In this document: positions 8,243 through 64,000 of the stretch, piece after piece
Numbering within the stretch: position 1 is the first letter of the stretch
How the letters are laid out: every line of letters starts with the position of its first letter
Source: Turnera subulata
Taxonomy: Eukaryota > Streptophyta > Magnoliopsida > Malpighiales > Passifloraceae
Direction of reading: 5' to 3'
Assembly (NCBI GenBank): GCA_028386065.3
Contig: JAKUCV010005684.1
Coordinates: forward strand, 19,115-83,114
DNA length: 64,000 nt
The notes under the pieces: generated by a model
Told to the model about the DNA's origin: nothing
The model's input: only the letters and a program-made list of their open reading frames with translations
The model's database searches: none
Translations under genes and position numbers: made by a program

Positions 8243-8760
8243 GGGCGGCAATATCCCTAGTTAACATAGGTGAGATGATCCTAGTTAGCAAAATCCCCAC
8301 AGGAGGGTGATAATATCCTTAGTTAGCAAAATCCCCGAAGGAGGGTGATAATATCCTTAGTTGGCAAAATCCCCACGGGAGGATGATAATATCCTTAGTT
8401 AGCAAAATCCCCACAGGAGGGTGATAATATCCTTAGTTGGCGAAATTCCCACGAGAGGGTGATAATATCATTAGTTGGCAAAATCCCCACGGGAGGGTGA
8501 TAATATTCTTAGTTAGCAAAATCCCCACAGGAGGGTGATAATATCCTTAGTTGGCAAAATCCCCACGGGAGGGTGATAATATCCTTAGTTAGCAAAATCC
8601 CCACAGGAGGGTGATAATATCCTTAGTTGGCAAAATCCCCACAGGATGGTGATAATATCCTTAGTTGGCAAAATCCCCACAGGAGGGTGATAATATCCTT
8701 AGTTGGCAAGATCCCTACGGGAGGGTGATAATATCCTTAGTTAGCATAGGTGAGATGATC
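8243..8760 (+). repeat. 38-bp tandem array in 3' region of Tat element
   Basis: About 12-13 copies of a 38-bp unit (ttagttggcaaaatcccc... then ggagggtgataatatcc) run head to tail; starts at 8281, 8319 and 8357 fix the period. Tandem repeats just upstream of the 3' LTR are a known habit of Tat/Ogre elements and a proposed source of satellites. Flanking sequence to 9009 carries looser versions of the same words (gggatgagatgattccc). Confidence 0.85.
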
Positions 8761-17706: not shown

Positions 17707-19194
17707 GAAAAAACAGAAACCCTCAAACCACATTACATCGGTAAGCTTTGTAACGAGCTCGACTAAAAACTTCTTGAAATCATAGGCTTCATAACAAATT
17801 TATAGTGTCGAAGGAAAAAATCACCCATCTTTCTTTTGTTGTAAACTTGAATCCCGGTGAATTTTAATTGTGAAGCTTTTACAAATTACTCATAAAATTA
17901 CTTATAAAGAGAGACGGTATAAAATTGTTTGCATGGGGATCGGTTAAGAGAAATATCCTTTCGTTAAATTGTTTTTTTTTTTTTTACGGATACAAGTTTT
18001 CTACAAATAATTTCAAATTTTTTTCGTGAAATAAATTTTCTTTTAAGGTATTTTTAATTTTTTTAAAAACCGTTTCCAGTGAGAATCTTCTCATCTAAAC
18101 CAAGACTATTAAAATCGAGTTTTACCTTGAGTCGGAAAGGTCTGGTCAAGAACGTAATGTAAAAACGTATCGTAAAATAGTAAGAGTTTACCGAATTTAA
18201 TTATATCAATAATTAAATACATAAATAACTCAATTATAATGTTCAGTCTAAAAATTAGCAATAGATCATTCAAAAGAATATATCGCTTAGTACCATAAAT
18301 TCAAAGTTAAAATAAACGTAAACGATATGTATCCAACAGAAACACTATTATACAAGGGTGACCGGATAAAGACTGTGAACTGAGAAAGTGGAGGAGAAAC
18401 AAGAAGCTAATGTTGAAGAATTTTTTAGTTAGGATTTTCGGTTTATAACTTGCTCCTCCAAAGAAATCAATAGACTTTACTTTTGGGTTGCTAAAACTTG
18501 CTTGGAATTTTAATATTCCTTTTTTTTAAGCTTTATTAAACCCTTCTAGTAAACTCGTACAAAATCGTTAAAATCATAAGATTTTTTCTGATTTTGTTGG
18601 TTCAACTCGTGATTTAATCCGATTTTATCCAGTCTTAGATTTTATTAACGGTTTGATTCAATTTTCAAATACAAAATCATAAAAATGGAAAAATATAAGA
18701 GTCAAAATGCATTTTTAATAGCCTTGATCTAAACCTTGGAATCCCCACCTCGATTTTATTTAACAAAAAAAAACATGGGAAAAGCTCTTACTGTTGTATA
18801 GCCGATAAAAGAGACTAGTCGGTGAAACCAAAGTGTTGGTCTCGAGGATTTGTCATAGGTAGGAAGATATAAGACACCCCACCTATGCTTGTACGAGACA
18901 ATGCTTAACTTTAAGCAGAAAAAGCGTCTTGTGCACGTGTGTGCTAGTTAAAAACTCAAAATCACTTAAAGAATGTTATCAATCAACACATAACAATATG
19001 CATATTTAAAAATATAAATAACAACAATAACACAAAAAAATAAAAGAAAAACAAAAGATTGGGTTGCGTCTCAAACTACTTTTTTTAAGATACTAATCGA
19101 TGCTTTTATAATAAATAACAGGAAGAAGAGGAGTACAGGAGCAAGTCAATGAGACAATGAAGGTGCTGGATAAAGAAAACATAGCCGGTAAGGA
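17707..19194. other. AT-rich intergenic DNA
   Basis: No ORF with recognisable content, no RNA gene and no clear repeat boundary. A T-run lies at 17971-17983. It is the continuation of the sequence into which the MULE inserted. Confidence 0.4.
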
Positions 19195-23488: not shown

Positions 23489-24470
23489 AGAGCTCCCCAA
23501 ATGGTTGAGCTTGAGACCTCGAGCATTTGAATCTTCTGGCAAGGTGAAACGCTTTGGCTGCCTCGTTAAAAACCTTCTCAGGAAAAGCCCGGTGGGATAA
23601 AAACCTGATGAAGGGAAAAAGAGTGCAGCTCACGTTCTATTTTCCTTCTTCCGGCGTTTATTGATGTCATGGTAGTGTTATGATATGATCCTCCTTGGCC
23701 ACATCACTATGTTGTATCGGGAAACTTTTATCCTGCACTTTGTATTGGCTCGAATTCTCTGGAAGGTCCTAGCTCCCGGTCCACTTGAGCTTATTCATTC
23801 TTAAACTCCTCATGACTTCTTTCCGTGAATGGGTCCTCCTGACGACCTCAGAGTATTTAGCTCCAGCTCCCCGTATTGGGTGCTTAAACTCAAGGTCCTT
23901 CGATTGTTGCTCCATTCCTCCTAAATTTTGTGCCTTTCAAAGAATGAATGTAGACTTGTGGTTCCTTTAGAAATGGAGGGGCATCGAGTCCACTATAGTT
24001 GGGACACTGAACGTTTGCAGGATACTCAAAGTCCTCGATCAGATTTGGGACGTTGTAGGTCCTTCACTTTGGGACGCTTTAGGTTCTTCACCAATTGTGG
24101 GGCGCTCGTGGCCCTTTATCCGTTGGGGGATGCATAGGTCCTTTATTCCAGGTTGAATTGTAGGCACCTAGGCATAATTCCGGGCACGAGGGTCTAGGTC
24201 GCATAGGTTATTTGCTTCTTGGTCCTTTACAAGGGTCCCTTTTTGGTCAGCCACCTTTGGGATGCGTCCAGGTCCTTGGACTAACGGCCCTTCTCTTTCG
24301 AAGACACATTAGGTCCTTTACTTTTAGAGCAGCCACCTTCGGGACGCTCCTAGGTCCTTTACTTTTAGGGCAGCCACCTTTGGGATGCTCTTAGGTCCTT
24401 TCCTTTTGGGTCCTAAGGTTTGACTTTAGCTCCCAGCCTCCTTTGGAGTTTCATTGGTTCTTGCTTGGGT

Positions 24471-24760
24471 GCGGGGCCTTCAACCCCTTGATTTTGAGGA
24501 CCTTCGCCTCTTACGGGCATGCGGGGCCTTCACCCCCTTGGGTTTGAGGACCTTCACCTCTTACGGGCATGCGGGGCCTTCACCCCTTGAGTTTGAGGAC
24601 TTACGCCTCTTACGGGCATGCGGGGCCTTGACCCCTTGAGTTTGAGGACCTTCACCTCTTACGGGCATGCGGGGCCTTCACCCCTTGAGTTTGAGGACCT
24701 TCGACTCATACGGGCATGCAGGGCCTTCACCCCTTGAGTTTGAGGACCTTCGCCTCATAC
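24471..24760. repeat. 50-bp tandem array inside LARD
   Basis: About six copies of gcggggccttcacccc-ttgagtttgaggacc-ttcgcctc-ttacgggcat at 24471, 24521, 24571, 24620 and onward, period 49-50. Confidence 0.85.
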
Positions 24761-25619
24761 GGTTGGTCTAGATCCTTCACCGAATGCAGGACTTTGGACC
24801 CCTTATCTAGGTCCTTTGTTGAATGCGGGGCGTTGAGCCCGTTTTCCTTGTACACATTAAGTCCATAACGTGCGGGACACCTGGGTCCTTTAGTTTGTGG
24901 GACGCTTGGGTCCTTTATATCTAGGACGCTTGGGTCCTTTACTACTTGGGCGTCTTCAACACAACAATCTGGACTCTTCTTGAGTGTTCCAGGTCCTTCA
25001 AGACAAGGTTTTTGGAACTCTTTTGGACGCTTTTGGTCATTATCCTCCTGGTTTGTTTGCATCTTATCATTTAGGCCTGGGTTAGCAACTTATCATTTTG
25101 GTACTTAGGCCCGCAGATTGGCTTCAGGGTCTTTGTTTTGGAGCGAGGGCCTTTGCTTCGGTCATTAGGCCTCGTATATTGGCATGGAGGGCCTTGTTAA
25201 CACAAGGGCCTCTGATTTGGCACTTAGGCCTTAAAATTAGAGTTGGGGCCTTGCTGGTGAGAGGGCCTTCATTTCAGCATTTGGGACGTGGTCTCCTTGT
25301 TTTTGCTACTCCTGGCTCGGTTCCTGGAATTTATAACTTGGAGACGTTTTGAATTTTGATGTCGAGGCCACCTTTAGAACCCATGAGTCCCTGTCCCCTA
25401 GGCCCTAGGGCTTAAGGTCTTTATTGCGATCTTCGGCCCTTCCTCCTAGGTCTTCCTCCCTGAGGCCCTAGGGCGTAGGATCTCTAGTTGCGATCTTCGG
25501 CCCTTCCTCCTAGGTCCTTCTCCCTGAGGCCCTAGGGTGTGGGGTCTCTGGTTGCCAACCAAACCCTTGGTTTGAAATCCCTTATGTTTTGGGACTTAGC
25601 AATTTTGACATGCTTTTCC

Positions 25620-25890
25620 CAAAATAAAGGCCTTTAATTTTGGCTCTTAGGCCTTAAAATTGGCATTGAGGCCTCGTTGGCGCAAGGGAATTCCATTTTG
25701 GCACTTAGGCCTTAGCATTGGCGCTCCAGCCTTGTTGGCGCAAGGGAATTCCATTTTGGCACTTAGGCCTTAGCATTGGCACTCCGGCCTTGTTGGCGCA
25801 AGGGCCTTCCATTTTGGCACTTAGGCCTTAGCATTGGCACTCCTGCCTCGTTGGCACAAGGGCCTTCAATTATGGCACTTAGGCCTTTTC
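25620..25890. repeat. 59-bp tandem array inside LARD
   Basis: Copies of cattttggcacttaggcc ... gttggcgcaaggg at 25694, 25753 and 25812 with weaker copies on both sides; period 59. Confidence 0.8.
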
Positions 25891-25959
25891 GGGACACTCA
25901 AGGTCCTTTGATTTGTATGTTTCCAAGCACGTGATTTGTGGGACTGCCCTTTTTGGGAC

Positions 25960-26285
25960 GCTCTTATGGGTCCATTGGGCGAGTGAGCCCTTCATTTTGG
26001 GACACTCTTATGGGTCCATTGGGCGAGTGAGCCCTTCATTTTGGGACATAGCCCGTTTTGGACGCGTGGGTCCTTTACTTTGGGACATAGCCCGTTTTTG
26101 GACGCGTGAGTCCTTTACTTTGGGACATAGCCCCTTTTGGACGCGTGGGTCCTTTACTTTGGGACATTGCCCGTTTTGGACGGGTTGGTCCTTTACTTTG
26201 GGATATAGCCCGTTTTGGACGCGTGGGTCCTTTACTTTGGGACATTGCTCGTTTTGGACGGGTTGGGTCCTTTACTTTGGGCACT
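25960..26285. repeat. 39/40-bp tandem array inside LARD
   Basis: At least six copies of gggacatagcccgttttgg-acgcgtgggtcctttactt starting at 26043, 26082 and 26122. The long open frames here on both strands (repeats of LLWDIARFGRVGP and similar) are a by-product of the repeat length being near a multiple of three, not genes. Confidence 0.85.
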
Positions 26286-38543: not shown

Positions 38544-38753
38544 TCATTGTTGCCGGCCACCATTCTCTCCTTTATTCAGCCCTGCCTTTTTGGCTTTGTC
38601 AATGTGATATCTTACAAAATTCTTCAGGATTGTTTCTGTTAGCAACTGTTCTGCCCTGGGTTCCTCCCCGTCGGCAGCCATTCTGGTCTCCTCCACAAGT
38701 TTTTCAAAAGACCCATCCTCATCAAGACCCTTCAAATCTTGAATCTTCCTCAT
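38544..38753 (-). CDS. 69-codon ORF, N-terminal relative of the B3 gene
   Basis: Intact frame from ATG 38753 to TGA 38544. Its middle (SFEKLVEETRMAADGEEPRA, then ETILKNFVRYHIDKAKKA) lines up with residues 15-58 of the B3 protein encoded at 56574-57629 (SFEEFCELCKVASCGDEEKA; EHILEGFIWFKIGQAKRE), so it is the N-terminal helical module of the DUF313-type B3 family without the DNA-binding domain. A TATA-like ctatatatg lies about 130 bp upstream on the minus strand (38881-38889). It may be a truncated paralogue or a first exon. Without the B3 domain it would not be expected to bind DNA; a dimerisation or decoy role is only a guess. Confidence 0.5.
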   Translation of the reverse strand: MRKIQDLKGLDEDGSFEKLVEETRMAADGEEPRAEQLLTETILKNFVRYHIDKAKKAGLNKGENGGRQQ

Positions 38754-43527: not shown

Positions 43528-44970
43528 TCAGAACAGATGTGGATACTGCTCTCTCATATGTGACTCAACCTCCCAAGTAGCCTCATTCGGGGAATGACGG
43601 CTCCATCTAGCCCGAACCATAGGAATGGTACGACTCCTCAACTGCCGCACCTCCTGAGCCAAAATCTCCACCGGCTCCTCAACATAGTTCAAATCCTGAG
43701 AAACCTCCACCTCTGTCGGAGATACAACATGACTAGGATCAGACCGATAACGCCTCAGCATCGAAACATGGAATACATCATGTATGCGCGACAGCTCCTC
43801 CGGTAAAGCCAACCTGTAGGCCAGCGGACCAATCTGCTCCATGATCTCATAAGGACCAATATAACGAGGGCTCAACTTGCCCTTCCTCCCAAACCGGATA
43901 ACACCTCTCCAGGGAGCAACACAGAGGAAAACTCTGTCACCTACACTGTACTCCATCTCCCGACGATGCTTATCAACAAAACTCTTTTGTCGGTCCTGAG
44001 CAGCTCTCATACACTACTTAACCACTTCGATCTGATCAACAGTCTCCTGGACTAGGTCTGGACCAACCACCTGTCTCAGACCTTCCTCATCCCAACAGAT
44101 CGGACTACGACACTTCCGCCCATACAAAGCCTCATAAGGCGTCATACCGATACTGGAGTGATACCCGTTGTTATAGGTAAACTCAATTAACGGTAATGTC
44201 TCACCCCAAGAACCACTGAAATTGAGCACACAAGCTCTAAGCATATCCTCCAGTGTCTGCGGATGGAATGCAGTACTGAAATTCAGCTTAGTACCCAAAG
44301 CTGACTGTAAGCTCTTCCAGAAGTGGGAAGTAAACCTCGGATCCCTGTCCGACACAATGGATAGTGGAACTCCATGTAGACGGACAATGCCCGAAACATA
44401 CAACCTCGCCAGCTTATCCATTGTATCTGTCTGCTTAATCGGAAGGAAATGAACTGACTTGGTCAACCTGTAAACAATGACCCAGATGACATCATGTCGA
44501 CCCCGGGTCCTCGATAACCCGATCACAAAGTCCATAGTGATATGCTCCCACTTCCACTGTGGAATAGTCAAAGATCTCAACTTGCCAGCAGGAGCCTGAT
44601 GCTCGGCTTTCACCTGCTGACAAGTCATACAACGAGCCACAAACTCCGCAACATCCTTCTTCATCCCGGGCCACCAATAATGACTTTTCAAGTTCTGGTA
44701 AATTTTGATGCTACCATGGTGCAAAGCATATGGCGCATTATGCGCTTCATCCATAATCCATCTCCTCAAATCTTCGACATCCAGAACACACAACCGATCA
44801 CCGGTCATCAAAGCATCATCCTCCCGGACATAGAAACTAGAACTCTCTCCACCGAGAGCCTTATCCCGCAACTCCTCTAGATGAGGATCACCAAAATGCA
44901 ACTCCATGATCTTATCCCGCAAGGTCGGTCAGATGCTCAAACTGGAAAGCGACGCCCCAGTAACATCCAC
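43528..44970 (-). pseudogene. Integrase and chromodomain of Tekay element, active-site deletion
   Basis: Zinc-binding HHCC (HNAPYALHH ... CMTCQQVK), then the catalytic core with MDFVIGL (first Asp) and SDRDPRF (second Asp). The family then has HPQT followed by about ten residues containing the catalytic Glu; here HPQT is joined directly to LEDMLR, so that Glu is missing. A TAG near 44013 separates the C-terminal part (43528-44010), which has the [10 protein letters not shown] fold and a chromodomain ending [18 protein letters not shown]. The chromodomain would steer integration towards marked heterochromatin; this copy could not catalyse strand transfer. Confidence 0.9.
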
Positions 44971-58562: not shown

Positions 58563-59069
58563 GTATAAACCCAAACAAGCTAAGAGGGGGGGTGAATTAG
58601 CGATTAAGAACTAATTAAAACTTTAATCAATAATAATTGCGGAATTAAAAAGGAGAGAAAGGCAAACCGATTTATACTGGTTCACACACACACAACCCGT
58701 GTGGCTAATCCAGTCCTCCGAGAGACTCTCTCGAAGATTCCACTATCACCGTTAAGCTTCCGGGTGCTTAACAAACTGTTTACAACTCCTACTTGAAGAT
58801 TCAACACTTCAAGACTTTTCCCACAGAAAGAAGACCCTCTTCCTATGAATTCACTACAAGGGAATAATCCTCCCTCAAGGTGTGTGATTACAATTGAGTC
58901 ACTCAAAGCAAAAACTCTCTTCAAGAGTAGGTATGAGTACACAAAGTAAGCTCTATAAGGCAACTCTCAATTCTCAATAATATTGGCTCAAAAATGATAT
59001 GTATGTATAACAATGAATGCTTGAAATTGTAGAGAGTCAATCACTTGATGATCAGAGGTGTAAATGCTC

Positions 59070-59078
59070 TATTTATAT
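59070..59078 (-). promoter_or_regulatory. LTR TATA box of minus-strand Sirevirus
   Basis: Minus strand atataaata followed by gagc, about 100 bp downstream of the last palindrome of the array. Confidence 0.6.
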
Positions 59079-59176
59079 GTCTAAAAGCTTATATGACTGT
59101 TGGGGAAACAAATCAAAACATCTTTAGACAAATTGTCATGGGAAGGTAAAAAGTGTGTCTGCCCATGACGGCTGAA

Positions 59177-59711
59177 CATCGATGTTCACATTTAGGACAT
59201 CGATGTTCTTGCCTTGAATATGCATTATAGGTCCAACGGTCACAAGGACATCGATGTTCTGAATGTGGACATCGATGTCCTGGCCAGCAAATATGAATTA
59301 TTGGGCTAACGGTCACTAGAACATCGATGTTGGACAAATGAACATCGATGTTCCACAAGACATTGTCCAAGACCCGAGACCAAATAACATCGATGTTCCA
59401 TAGCTGAACATCGATGTTTTGGACATTCCCAAAACAGTCTTAAAACCAGATTCAATAGGACATCGATGTTATGAACAAGGACATCGATGTTCAAACTCTT
59501 CAAAGCCATTTTTAAGCATAACGGTCATAAGGACATCGATGTTCAAATAATGGAACATCGATGTTATAAACTACTGCCTACTTTTGGAAAAATTATTTTA
59601 GTGCAGGACATCGATGTTCAAATATTGGACATCGATGTTCAAAGCTTAGAAACCTTCTCGAGAGCTTGGTTTCAATGCAGGACATCGATGTTCAATATTG
59701 CAACATCGATG
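59177..59711 (-). promoter_or_regulatory. Array of 16 CATCGATG palindromes in 8 phased pairs
   Basis: CATCGATG starts at 59177/59198, 59249/59270, 59322/59343, 59388/59409, 59461/59482, 59534/59556, 59609/59630 and 59683/59704. Within pairs the distance is 21 bp (once 22). Pairs repeat every 66-75 bp, mostly 72-74. Several units also share aacggtca. Both spacings are near whole helical turns, so all sites would face one side of the DNA. Confidence 0.9.
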
Positions 59712-60031
59712 TTCATGACTCGGAAGACATAAATATGATTGAAATGAAATCAAATTGATGCATGAGTAAAAGTGATTTTGTTTGAGCCAATAACTTAGAG
59801 ACATTGAATGTTTAACCTTGTACAAAATTGAGTTCCTAACTCATCTTTTTCTTCTTGCTTGATCTTGTCACATCCATTCACATCCATTCTTGAACACTTT
59901 GATGTCATAAGGCTTGGGTCTTGATTATTTCCTTTTGTTCCATAATAATGATCATCTTAATACAGGGTTGATTTGTCATTATCAAAACCTGAATGAGATA
60001 AAGAGATATTAGCAAAATATTATTTTCAACA

Positions 60032-60196
60032 ATTTCCCCCTTTTTGATAATGACAAACAAGTTGAAGTATGTGCTTATTAGTTCCCCCTATGTTTTAGCC
60101 ATGATACCATTTTAAGTTTGAACTTGTTGAACTTTGATATCATTTTAAATTGAACTTGGTGTGCACATACATATTAAGTTGTTTTCCCCCTTTTGG
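60032..60196 (-). other. Three spaced polypurine tracts
   Basis: Minus strand caaaaagggggaaat (adjoining the LTR, 60032-60046), atagggggaac (60081-60091) and ccaaaagggggaaaac (60181-60196). Multiple PPTs as in the plus-strand Sirevirus. Confidence 0.7.
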
Positions 60197-60293: not shown

Positions 60294-61540
60294 TTAGTTC
60301 CCATCATCATCATCGTCATCGTCTTCATTTTCGGCAGCAACGTCTTCTTCTTCATTCGCCGCGTCCATGTCCATAGGATCACTGGCCACAGTAGGATCAT
60401 ATGGCTCATCATCATCTTCTCCCTCAGCCCCGAAATCATAGCCCTGAAAGGTGGTATGATAGGGTGGAGGTTGATAGTGGACTCTATCAAAGTAGGAGAG
60501 CATGCCCTTGGCGTTGTACTTCAAAGTCAATGCGATCAATGGACCGTCCCATGCAATTAACACTCCTTTGAAGATGGGTAAGAGAAGCTGCAATCGATTC
60601 AAGAGTGACGATAGAAGCTTGAGGAGCTGGTTCGGGACGGGTTGGTGCTGCGGAACTCTCACCCGAGGGAATCCTGGGGGGCTTGCTCGGGTCTACCAGT
60701 TCGGAAGGTGTCATCACTAATTGCCCACGTCTTGGTATGAGAGACTTGGGGACCTTCCCGGGCATCAATGCCGGCGTGTAGGAGAATGTCCAACACCAGG
60801 ATGGGATAGGGCAGAGGATGATGGGTGGATTGAGACGGATAGTCGGTCATGTGCATAAGCACAAAACGTGCCCAATTAATTGGAGCATGATGGAGAAGGG
60901 CATGGAGTATCTTCACATCCTCAATAGATAGGACGGTATGATTTACGGGTCGTGGCTTGATCACCCGGGTGATGAGATAAAACAGAACACGATTCTCCGG
61001 AGGAAGAGAGTGGATTGTTGGTCTTTTGGAATGGGCGGTACGGACAACCTCCGTGAAACCGAGCGCTTGCAAAAGAGGAGCTTCATGGGTCGTGATGAAA
61101 TGAGGACCGCCATAAGAAGCAATATCCTCACCCTGAAATGGTAAGCCGGAAACAGCCCCGAATTGCTCGAGAGTCAAAGAGACAGTAGTTCCATTCACTT
61201 GGGCTGTCAACACGTCACCATCGCGATTGAGGGTGGTGTAGAAGGCTTTGGTAAAATCGGCACTATATTGATTGCTTCGGTTGGTTACGAAATCCCATAA
61301 TCCAGATGCACGAAGGTTCTCTTCAAGCCTTGTGTAGTGCTTCTCCCTCGGATACGAGACCGAAAGATACCGGGGAGGAAAAATTTGACGAGTATGAAAG
61401 AGTGATTGATAGAGTGTGAGTTGGGCACGGGAGGTGAACCAAACAGCGGATTGGTCATCCAAAGGGATTTTAGAAGAAGAGGAAGAAGGACCTCCTCTTT
61501 TGGTTGGTTGTCTCACGGGTGTTTTGCCTTGTCGGCCCAT
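60294..61540 (-). pseudogene. Env-like/Transposase_32-type ORF, two frameshifts
   Basis: Frame from ATG 61540 encodes a basic start, then a plant-transposon-type domain (REKHYTRLEENLRASGLWDF, YSADFTKAFYTTL, LEQFGAVSGLPFQG, IHSLPPENRVLFYLITRV). It shifts frame near 60770, giving a Pro-rich link and a helical segment (LESIAASLTHLQRSV), and again near 60500, giving an acidic tail (EGEDDDEPYDP ... DDDDDDDGN). Only two indels break it, so it died recently or one is an assembly error. No signal peptide or membrane helix is visible, which argues against a true envelope protein. A TATA box lies 113 bp upstream. Confidence 0.7.
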
Positions 61541-61652
61541 GATTGGAGTGTGGAATTAAGGAGGATAGAGGTGAAGATAGGAAGGATATGGAATAGAGAA
61601 GGCAAGAAGAAGACTTGGATATGTTGTGGAGAAGTGTGGAAATGTAGAGCAA

Positions 61653-61660
61653 TATATATA
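61653..61660 (-). promoter_or_regulatory. Candidate internal TATA box for env-like gene
   Basis: Minus strand ctcctatatatattgc lies 113 bp before the ATG at 61540 and about 135 bp downstream of the nearest palindrome pair. Confidence 0.5.
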
Positions 61661-61794
61661 GGAGGCAGAAAAAAAAAAAGAGCTGTTGGGAGCTGTAACG
61701 GGTAGTAACAGCTATAAACGGCTAGAAAATTTAAGAAGGAACATCAGCCAAATAGCCTTTAACGGCTATATTTTTTTGAATTAAATCAGCGGAA

Positions 61795-62013
61795 CATCGA
61801 TGTCCATGATGGGAACATCGATGTTCTGTATGGTTGGGTTGATTTTTATTGTGTAACGGCTCTATTTTGAAATTTCAGTAGTAGTGGAACACCGATGTTC
61901 CATCTCGTGACATCGATGTTGTGCACTGTTGGATGTAGGCTGGAATTGTCTAACGGCTCTTATTTTTGAAAAATGGTACCTGAACATCGATGTCCACCAG
62001 TTGAACATCGATG
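61795..62013 (-). promoter_or_regulatory. Internal array of phased CATCGATG pairs
   Basis: Pairs start at 61795/61816, 61890/61911 (first site cACCgatg) and 61985/62006; within-pair distance is always 21 bp, pair period 95 bp. Each unit carries taacggct. A fourth pair with a degenerate first site lies at 63444/63465, beyond an insertion. The motif and spacing copy the LTR array. Confidence 0.85.
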
Positions 62014-62019
62014 TTATTT

Positions 62020-63430
62020 ACTCTCTGGTCCGAGGTGGGAGATAGGGAATGTGGTTGATCCATGTGTAACAAAGTTAAGGATAGTAAGTTGGCCTCTGCC
62101 CCTAAGAATTATTGTTTTGGATTTCTATCCTCCCGGGATGAGGTGGTATCTCCTTGTCGTAAGTACACCGGGCTCGAGAAAATGTCTTTTCAGTTGGACT
62201 TTGGGTGCCTCTGATGCCCAACGAATCATACTGTGAGATCCGTGATGAATCAATAATGCAGTTTATGCCACGATTTTCAACAAAGCAGACACTTGATTAG
62301 CTGAAAAATTGGATGTTAGCAATAAATGAATTTTCAAGTGGCTCAAAAAGGAGATTCTTGACAATCCAAGTGGTTTGGAGGGGCCGTCCTCTGAACGTTC
62401 TTCATGATACTCCAAGGATAGGTAGGGGTCACCTCCTGAACACTGTTGGACACTTCAGAAATTTTCTAGGGGGTCACCGTTTGAGAGAAGAAGCAATGCA
62501 ATTATGTTTCTATAAATAGACATACGTTAGAGCTTTATTAAACACAAAAAGTTTATAATCCAATTTCAGAAAGCGAGTTTAGCAAAAAAATATCAAAAGC
62601 AAAAATGCCTTCCCCTTCCTCCGTCTTTTTTGTTGAGGGTGCAAATGTAGGTAGGAGAAATCGGCTGGCCTTCACCAATGTAAACGAGCAACAAGGGCCA
62701 TTGCCAGAGGAACTAGCAAGAATTCCCCGTCTTGTCTTTGTAGACGAGATTTATTCTTCCCGCTTCTTTGTCACCCCTATGGAAGAAGTCATCTTCCTGG
62801 AGCATCAACAATCCCTACGAGCATCCTACTATGGTACGACCAATTCCACAATGTTTTTTATTTCCGACAAATTTCAGGAGCTTCAGTTGGAACCAACCTA
62901 CCAGACGGTGAACGAGGGCAGTTATTACCAGATTACTATGACAGCTCAGAGCATTCCTCGAGTAGCTGGAGTAGCGCCCACTTGGCCAAAGGTTCGCCTT
63001 TTGGTGTGGAACTGCAGGGGTATCACAGCACGTTCACAAGATTTTGTCCGAATCCTGCGAGACCTGAAGAACCAATATAAACCCAATATGGTTCTACTTA
63101 CCGAGACTCAATGGCAGCAAACTTGAAATCACGGAGCTATCCCTCTTCGCTTTCCACCAACACAACGGTTCGAGCTTCCTGGCCAGAACAACTCGGGTGG
63201 AATGTGGTTTGCTTGGAGTCATTGCATTAGGGTTAACATAGTCAATACTCCTAATGGCTTTACTATAACAGCTGAACCAAATCGTTAGAAGCAGATAATA
63301 ATTGTATGATGTAATGCTGCATTTCTTGTTTATAAGTGTGATTGTAAAATATATGATGTAATGGAATGTATGTGTGATTATATAAAATCAGTAAAATCTT
63401 ATGTGTGTATCAAAGCAAAATTGGTTTAGA
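62020..63430 (+). other. Foreign plus-strand unit in the pol-env spacer (approximate limits)
   Basis: If the 95-bp unit had continued, the next pair would start at 62080; it is found at 63444, so about 1364 bp were inserted. The insert has a plus-strand TATA box (tataaataga, 62511), a leader, and a 228-codon frame. The ends and target duplication were not resolved, so the type of insertion is unknown. Confidence 0.45.
62605..63288 (+). pseudogene. Endonuclease/exonuclease/phosphatase-like fragment with unknown N-terminus
   Basis: Frame from ATG 62605 with one TGA at 63124-63126, ending at 63288. Residues 1-125 are not recognised. From about 128 it reads VRLLVWNCRGITARSQDF and PNMVLLTETQ, the start of the endonuclease domain found in LINE ORF2 proteins. 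After the TGA, SGGMWFAWSHCIRV fits the next conserved block. The catalytic His and the rest of the domain are missing and no RT follows. It could be a 5' piece of a LINE fused to another ORF, or a captured host gene. TATA box 94 bp upstream. Confidence 0.45.
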
Positions 63431-63565
63431 GAACTTACCTGAACATTGATATTGTGATACTCAACATCGATGTTGTGATCATGTTGCCAAAATTCGGAAT
63501 TAGCCTTCAGCGCTATTTTGTTCCCCCTATCATTTGGCCTAATTGGCCTTCTTACCATGAGTTCA

Positions 63566-64000
63566 TCAAGGAGGGTTACACATGCCCAAATCCAGCCTTA
63601 TTTTTGTGAATTGATCTTCTTTCAAAGGCTTGGTGAAGATATCTGCATGTTGTCCATCGGTCTTGACAAAATCAAGTGTTATATCTTTCCTTTGCACATG
63701 ATCACGAATAAAATGATGTCTAATCTCTATATGCTTTGTTCGTGAATGCTGGATAGGATTCTTAGTGAGATTGATGGCACTAGTACTATCACAGTAAATA
63801 AGAATAGATTCAAACTTCAAGCCATAGTCTTCAAGAGTATGTTTCATCCACAAAACTTGAGCACAACAGGAACCTGCAGCTATATACTCTGCTTCGGTAG
63901 TAGAAGTAGCTACGGAATTTTGCTTTTTGCTAGACCATGAGACTAATGCTTGACCAAGAAATTGACATGTACCACTAGTACTTTTTCTATCTAAGGTACT
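63566..64000 (-). CDS. Sirevirus RNase H end (partial, open at window edge)
   Basis: Uninterrupted minus-strand frame entering from the window edge: DRKSTSGTCQFLGQALVSW, TSTTEAEYIAAGSCCAQVL with the conserved Glu, then YCDSTSAINLTKNP, RTKHIEIRHHFIRD and HADIFTKPLKEDQF, stop at 63566. It is closely related to 10741-11218 but intact. It would remove the RNA strand during reverse transcription. Confidence 0.9.
   Translation of the reverse strand, partial: STLDRKSTSGTCQFLGQALVSWSSKKQNSVATSTTEAEYIAAGSCCAQVLWMKHTLEDYGLKFESILIYCDSTSAINLTKNPIQHSRTKHIEIRHHFIRDHVQRKDITLDFVKTDGQHADIFTKPLKEDQFTKIRLDLGMCNPP

Follow-up and report, generated by a model that had tools for sequence, protein, structure and literature searches.

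In a SIRE-type Ty1/copia retrotransposon of Turnera subulata, the stretch at 61541–62016 (about −765 to −1 in a fuller relative) probably serves as a Pol II promoter internal to the element, located ahead of the extra, env-like ORF behind pol. The internal promoter is the best reading, since an array of paired palindromes, RCCGTT motifs, a TATA-like site, a leader, and the ATG keep their order despite diverged spacers. The element lies on the minus strand of the window (the whole 64,000-nucleotide stretch analyzed, positions 19115–83114 of the contig, with the window end being the contig end), and the genome searches covered the 518.7-Mb assembly. The order on the minus strand is pol, AGGGGGA, a palindrome pair, the antisense ORF, the internal array, the TATA box, the env-like ORF, three PPTs, and the 3′ LTR, with the following positions.

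63566..64000, minus strand: pol 3′ end (Ty1/copia RNase H), stop at 63566, cut by the window/contig end
63522..63528, minus strand: PPT-like AGGGGGA just past pol, before env
63442..63474: degenerate palindrome pair just past pol (12-mer starts 63442/63463)
62605..63126, plus strand: antisense ORF, 173 aa in the window
62511..62518, plus strand: TATAAATA, 94 bp before the antisense ATG
61983..62015: internal palindrome pair 3 (12-mer starts 61983/62004), 21-bp spacing
61888..61920: internal palindrome pair 2 (12-mer starts 61888/61909), 21-bp spacing
61793..61825: internal palindrome pair 1, closest to the TATA box (12-mer starts 61793/61814), 21-bp spacing
61952..61957, 61855..61860, and 61761..61766: further GCCGTT copies, all on the coding strand
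61717..61722, minus strand: GCCGTT, the proximal MYB/MSA-core motif
61653..61660, minus strand: TATATATA, candidate TATA box, 120 bp before the env-like ATG
60659..61540, minus strand: env-like (extra) ORF, ATG at 61540, 293 aa to the first stop
60032..60041, minus strand: terminal PPT AGGGGGAA plus AT, joined to the start (TG) of the 3′ LTR
58563..60031, minus strand: 3′ LTR, with an approximate left border placed where the LTR matches of relatives stop
59175..59713: LTR array of eight palindrome pairs (16 palindromes)
59070..59077, minus strand: LTR TATA box TATAAATA, 98 bp after the last LTR palindrome

Elsewhere in the window, several tandem arrays with 39–64-bp units lie at 24310–26281, many of them having common words such as GGGTCCTT or GGACGC, and a 38-bp tandem repeat (12.4 copies, 91% matches) lies at 8278–8746.

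Allowing one mismatch, ACATCGATGT occurs 24 times in the window, versus 1.35 expected and at most 4 in 100 shuffles. The site at 61888, the first member of pair 2, is ACACCGATGT, with one mismatch in the 10-mer. An earlier note on this DNA had placed three pairs with 21-bp spacing between pol and the env-like ORF and a fourth past pol at 63444/63465. The three pairs are present, with coordinates right within two bases, and the fourth is found at 63442/63463 in a degenerate form. The succession of array, TATA box, and start codon is also as claimed, the TATA box at 61660–61653 being followed by the ATG at 61540 on the minus strand. The LTR was said to have the same order with a TATA box about 100 bp beyond its array, and TATAAATA is indeed located 98 bp after the last LTR palindrome.

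The unit length should be noted. The contrast drawn between 95 bp in the internal array and 73 bp in the LTR holds for the two proximal internal units, whereas the distal units in L009 are LTR-like (66–75 bp). L009, which is 98% identical to the window over the array, has seven pairs at −765 to −255 plus a pair near pol. The pair-to-pair steps in its internal array are 66, 72, 75, 75, 95, and 95 bp, and those in the LTR are 74, 74, 74, 73, 66, 73, and 72 bp. Compared with L009, four distal pairs and about 390 bp near 62041–62053 are missing from the window, so that the unit-length contrast partly rests on a damaged copy. The number of pairs varies between element copies. Among relatives with a fetched piece long enough to include that region, those that retain a counterpart of the pair at 63442/63463 have it at about −2200 to −2440. 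The claim that the array is not a plain copy of the LTR stands. With the palindromes masked, the internal and LTR spacers have no similarity in L009, L040, L042, and L044 (best E 0.64), which rules out that the array arose as an LTR copy.

A 401-bp array query of the genome gave 65 matches (the best 40 of 154 candidates were scored), and 20 loci were fetched. A protein query with the env-like ORF gave 135 matches down to 62% identity (the best 134 of 1588 candidates were scored). The family counts are lower bounds because only the best candidates were scored. The array is present in 20 of the 20 loci fetched with it, by construction, since it was the query. Eight diverged loci across the identity range were picked by the env-like protein alone, not the array. 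The array is present in all eight, with 9–14 exact CATCGATG sites upstream of the ORF. CATCGATG sites also occur in the fetched LTR part of six of the eight, and no palindrome was found downstream of the ORF in the fetched pieces of L039 and L041. The layout of array, RCCGTT, TATA-like site, pyrimidine-rich leader, and ATG recurs in families where the array spacers have diverged.

In an alignment of 19 copies (L027 and L028 omitted), the mean pairwise identity is 0.959 for the palindromes, 0.973 for their ATCGAT cores, 0.840 for the array spacers, and 0.811 for the 9-bp spacers within pairs. The values for the array-to-TATA stretch, the TATA stretch, the leader, and the first 60 bases of the ORF are 0.908, 0.882, 0.911, and 0.925, respectively. 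The CpG in the ATCGAT core should decay fast in a methylated element. Identities to L009 were scored for L037–L040 and L042–L044, leaving out L041. The palindrome and spacer identities are 0.94 and 0.69 in L037, 0.86 and 0.64 in L038, 0.85 and 0.58 in L039, and 0.81 and 0.55 in L040. In the three most distant loci, they are 0.91 and 0.41 (L042), 0.90 and 0.42 (L043), and 0.92 and 0.45 (L044). Tandem-repeat homogenization could keep unselected palindromes alike, as the differing copy number among copies would allow. However, homogenization would carry the spacers along, yet they are at 0.41–0.45 where the palindromes are at 0.90–0.92.

The spacing also bears on this point. Successive palindromes in 21 pieces are 21 bp apart 236 times, 22 bp 13 times, and 20 bp three times, and the next commonest distance is 52 bp (46 times). 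In the internal arrays of the eight diverged loci, 21 bp is found 42 times and 20 bp five times. Genome-wide, ACATCGATGT pairs with a gap of 10–12 occur at 38,656 places (24 for the reversed control) and those with a gap of 0–30 at 44,553 places (26 for the control). As many as 87% of the close pairs genome-wide are thus 20–22 bp apart, in three of the 31 gap lengths, a distance of two helical turns. This preference, together with the same pairs in a distant LTR described below, makes homogenization a very improbable explanation. In viral contigs, neither a match to the palindrome pair nor a relative of the pol end was found.

A protein dimer may bind AACATCGATGTT; with 21 bp making two turns, the two dimers of each pair would then face the same side of the DNA helix. 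The palindrome-bound protein would activate both the LTR promoter and the internal promoter. The RCCGTT sites (MYB or MSA core) and the TATA box would set the direction and the start, and the extra (env-like) protein would be translated from the resulting short mRNA, whose leader is pyrimidine-rich.

A candidate core promoter lies ahead of the ORF. Of 25 loci, 17 have TATATA or TATAAA no more than 150 bp ahead of the ATG, at −99 to −135, and five have TACATA. Neither TATA form is found within 150 bp in three loci, two of which (L039 and L040) have TACATA further upstream. These counts omit L015, where the aligned start has no ATG, L027 and L028, which have no aligned ATG, and L041, whose start is broken. 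Between the last palindrome and the TATA box, the distance ranges from 71 to 135 bp in the 17 loci, unlike the fixed distance in the LTR, where exactly 98 bp separates the two in seven of nine LTRs; no TATA box was found in the LTRs of L042 and L043. In the 19-copy alignment, conservation of the TATA stretch (0.88) does not exceed that of its neighbors (0.91). The predicted RNA start lies near 61625–61630 on the minus strand. A CpG island was not called; in L009, the CpG observed/expected ratio is 0.73–0.97 in the internal array and 0.82–0.99 in the LTR array, with a GC content of 0.37–0.42.

The last 85 bp before the ATG are 72–82% pyrimidine with 0–6% G. Plant 5′ leaders are similarly pyrimidine-rich. 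Only one ATG is found in 2125 bp of leader (25 loci), versus 224 in 10,375 bp just upstream. Shuffled leader bases contain 4.8 ATGs on average, and one or none in 39 of 1000 shuffles. The ATG scarcity was rejected as proof of a leader, as it mostly reflects base composition (1 seen versus 4.8 expected), and it is weak support. The same stretch could instead be the tract of a 3′ splice site, the extra ORF being expressed from a spliced LTR transcript and the array having another role. This is the main rival to the internal promoter, though we regard it as somewhat unlikely. The nearest AG before the ATG is at −65 to −87 in 22 closer loci (about −75 in the window family). In L042 and L043, and in L044 with one more AG at −94, an AG at −3 follows an AG-free pyrimidine-rich stretch, and splice acceptors have been predicted for BAGY2 and Athila (PMC2829016). 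However, the AG shifts from about −75 to −3 between families, while the TATA-like site, at −99 to −135 in most loci, remains in place, as does the array.

The RCCGTT motifs have a clear orientation. In the first 21 pieces, each copy has three to six RCCGTT within 780 bp upstream of the ATG and no AACGGY. Seven family representatives contain 26 RCCGTT and no AACGGY, and mononucleotide shuffles give a mean of 2.12 RCCGTT with a maximum of 9 (1000 shuffles). The strand bias is weaker in the LTR array, with 2–4 RCCGTT per copy in the scored arrays that have any, and with one AACGGY in the LTR array of L012, L020, L022, L027, and L028. RCCGTT is the complement of AACGGY, and the full MSA consensus is YCYAACGGYYA. 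RCCGTT also fits the general MYB core of plants, CNGTTR. On the opposite strand, an exact MSA (TGACCGTTGGA) is present in the LTR array of the window and of L038, L040, L042, L043, and L044, that is, in five of the six diverged loci with an LTR part; the sites in L037, L020, L022, L027, and L028 end in GGG. AACGG is described as the core of MSA elements bound by MYB3R (PMC8964727). Repeated AACGG cores near a TATA box are found upstream of env, where MYB3R binding is putative.

The array sits between two divergent ORFs, the env-like one and the antisense one. The antisense ORF is open over 227 codons in 10 loci (L009, L011, L013, L015, L019–L023, and L026; the first codon is GTG in L009). Its omega is 0.14 (mean dS 0.51), against 0.32–2.27 for the remaining five reading frames of this DNA. 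The second half of the longer form resembles the first 93 of 225 Exo_endo_phos positions (22.7 bits, cut-off 24.5), a putative partial (half) EEP-endonuclease domain below the Pfam cut-off. No protein homologues of the antisense ORF of the window were found. The ORF is also present in L048 (71% identical, unbroken) and L046 (broken).

The constrained antisense ORF begins beyond the array and has a TATA box 82–103 bp before its start in 16 of 20 copies, as expected if the array mainly drove or enhanced transcription of the antisense gene, or controlled both genes bidirectionally. This explanation, which is compatible with an internal promoter, is nevertheless unlikely. The array lies beside the env-like gene in L042 and L044, and no antisense match was found in their fetched upstream stretches (L045 and L047), so that the array is independent of the antisense ORF. 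Moreover, about 600 bp separates the antisense TATA box from the array in L009, and RCCGTT upstream of env points one way only.

Two types of antisense gene are observed, with a dS of about 1 between L009 and L013 or L015 and with TATAAATAG or TATAAAAGG boxes. In the region matching window 62030–63440, L010, L013, L015, L016, L018, and L025 are separated from L009, L011, L020–L023, and L026. Both types occur in elements whose 5′ env-like part is 92–98% identical to that of the window, which points to module exchange, perhaps by template switching.

The frame of the extra ORF is unbroken over 416 aa in eight of 19 pieces (the window and L009–L026). The frame of the window is shorter (293 aa), and those of L016 and L021 are cut by the contig end. 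The best Kyte–Doolittle 19-residue mean is 1.12–1.28 in unbroken frames (1.24 in the eight 416-aa frames), and hence no membrane segment is expected. Judged by hydropathy, the signal peptide and transmembrane segment of an envelope protein are not found. The last 60 residues of the eight unbroken frames contain 22–24 D/E. Their omega of 0.273 (28 pairs, mean dS 0.089) indicates purifying selection, though choosing unbroken copies favors constraint. Pfam Transposase_32 scores 39.0–43.8 bits, below the cut-off of 45. The same domain has been described in the extra ORF of a sunflower Athila element, for which a nuclear signal is predicted (PMC11728184). The label "envelope" is unsupported by hydropathy, and a nuclear or nucleic-acid role appears as likely. 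Only two protein homologues were found, both Turnera proteins, and a search of solved structures gave nothing meaningful (best E 0.52).

Such a protein might itself use the array. An element-encoded DNA-binding or anti-silencing protein like VANC, perhaps the extra ORF with its basic N-terminus, predicted long helix, and acidic tail, would take the array as its platform. Proteins of the VANC type bind short motifs that are repeated in the non-coding regions of the element encoding them (PMC5735166), and the extra ORF, having no membrane segment (best hydropathy 1.24), an acidic end, and purifying selection, is consistent with this role. However, the palindrome is constant while the ORF diverges to 59–64% identity, unlike VANC targets, and a co-variation test found no palindrome change in step with the extra ORF among the sampled loci. 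The motif is not specific to the family of its supposed binder either, as it is also present in compact copia LTRs of elements with no env match. An AlphaFold2 model of the extra ORF (11 sequences; pLDDT 36, pTM 0.25) is too poor for a fold to be assigned. We consider a VANC-like platform improbable.

The compact elements (L049 and L050, contigs C20 and C8; LTR pieces L051–L053) have arrays about 4.8–4.9 kb apart, LTR to LTR, and their interiors encode gag and pol. Their RNase H identities to the window are 42% (139 residues) and 45% (53 residues, cut by the fetched end); the RNase H of the distant env-bearing family at C2814 (L047) is 70% identical to that of the window. No env-like or antisense ORF match was found in the interiors fetched. 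The palindrome pairs in the compact LTRs have 19–21-bp spacing and are located downstream of the TATA boxes, of which one was found in C20 and two in C8; RCCGTT is absent from these LTRs. With the palindromes masked, comparison of the compact elements with the array, linker, and LTR of the Sirevirus gave no further match (best E 0.087). The location downstream of the TATA boxes suggests that the palindromes need not be upstream promoter elements and may be enhancer-like.

The common pairs in distant compact elements favor a host factor recruited by both. The palindrome binder would most likely be a host transcription factor, not an element product, though a Sirevirus-encoded binder used in trans by other elements is possible. 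As a tentative and on the whole doubtful extension, at least two distant Ty1/copia lineages may have converged on one host DNA-binding dimer. The approximately 38,700 ACATCGATGT pairs would be its landing sites, on either side of the TATA box and in LTR and internal promoters, and MYB3R-type sites in Sirevirus would time expression to dividing cells.

The internal promoter proposed in the earlier note is therefore retained with qualifications. The recurrence of the layout in diverged families speaks for it, but the TATA box is not conserved above its neighbors, candidate splice AGs are present, the extra protein has no envelope hallmark, and the idea had already been published.

The published account concerns Sireviruses. 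These elements have multiple AGGGGGAG PPTs and an AT/TG attachment site joining the terminal PPT to the 3′ LTR (PMC2829016), and the window piece has four AGGGGGA PPTs in the linker, the terminal one reading AGGGGGAA-AT-TG. The last base of this PPT is A, as reported for ToRTL1 and Tnd-1 (PMC2829016). A poly-C integrase signal near the LTR 3′ end, TTCACCCCCCCTCTTAG, was located by eye at about 58580–58597 on the minus strand. The palindromic RM lies in the upper half of the LTR with a TATA box shortly downstream and was described in 13 elements (Bousios et al. 2010, PMC2829016); the LTR of the window has 16 palindromes and a TATA box at +98. The RM core is CGG-CCG in 12 of the 13 published RMs, the exception being that of Tnd-1, ACAATCGATTGT, which has no ENV (PMC2829016). 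The core here is ATCGAT, like that of Tnd-1, so that the box in the window is not a typical RM, though the published set has the Tnd-1 exception. Extra RMs upstream of ENV, a trait of RM elements with ENV, have their counterpart here. Bousios et al. 2010 also described high-copy RM boxes ahead of the ENV-like gene and suggested that they mark an internal promoter; a promoter upstream of ENV could not be conclusively identified (PMC2829016). The same report called the function and expression of the ENV gene unproven and described RMs as absent from classic elements (PMC2829016). MASiVEdb names an internal promoter among the modes of ENV expression (PMC3414828).

In the literature searched, which included few subscription papers, we found no published report of an ATCGAT-type box preceding an ORF of this kind, nor of the TATA/leader/RCCGTT core, the sharing with compact copia elements, or the antisense gene in this lineage. 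The new points are the ATCGAT type with pairing at two helical turns, the candidate core promoter behind it, the 38,656 pairs genome-wide, and the pairs in compact copia LTRs. The candidate core promoter addresses the question of how plant Ty1/copia elements express a gene behind pol, and it predicts a precise position at which RNA should start. With the constant paired palindrome as bait, the host factor that would activate this very abundant group of elements could be sought, and the pairs in the distant compact copia lineage make a common host factor directly testable.

The arrangement can be compared with several known systems. The accessory gene of Grande, a Ty3/gypsy element of maize, is reportedly transcribed from its own promoter (Gomez-Orte et al. 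2013). In the element here, too, an extra gene with a putative promoter of its own is located between pol and the 3′ LTR, whereas Grande belongs to the gypsy lineage and its gene is antisense. Foamy viruses have an internal promoter, a second one ahead of downstream genes; the principle is the same, though the virus and its sequence are unrelated. Retand resembles the present element in having an antisense ORF and tandem arrays between pol and the 3′ LTR (PMC11963269). It differs in being a gypsy element with a TRP28 domain, and the parts of that report on which we draw describe no palindrome pairs or TATA box (PMC11963269). The VANDAL/VANC system shares the arrays of short motifs in non-coding parts of a mobile element, but its motif is family-specific and bound by an element protein (PMC5735166), whereas the motif here is constant and common to a distant lineage.

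The Sirevirus RM (PMC2829016) has in common with the present array the palindromic boxes in the LTR ahead of a TATA box and 5′ of an ENV-like gene, along with the multiple PPTs and AT/TG. Unlike the RM as described there, the palindrome here has the core ATCGAT instead of CGG-CCG and a strict 21-bp pairing, a TATA-like site, leader, and RCCGTT are found upstream of the extra ORF, and the motif also occurs in a compact copia element, in contrast to the absence of RMs from classic elements (PMC2829016). The idea of an internal promoter dates from 2010 (PMC2829016), and the Turnera genome gives it stronger comparative support.
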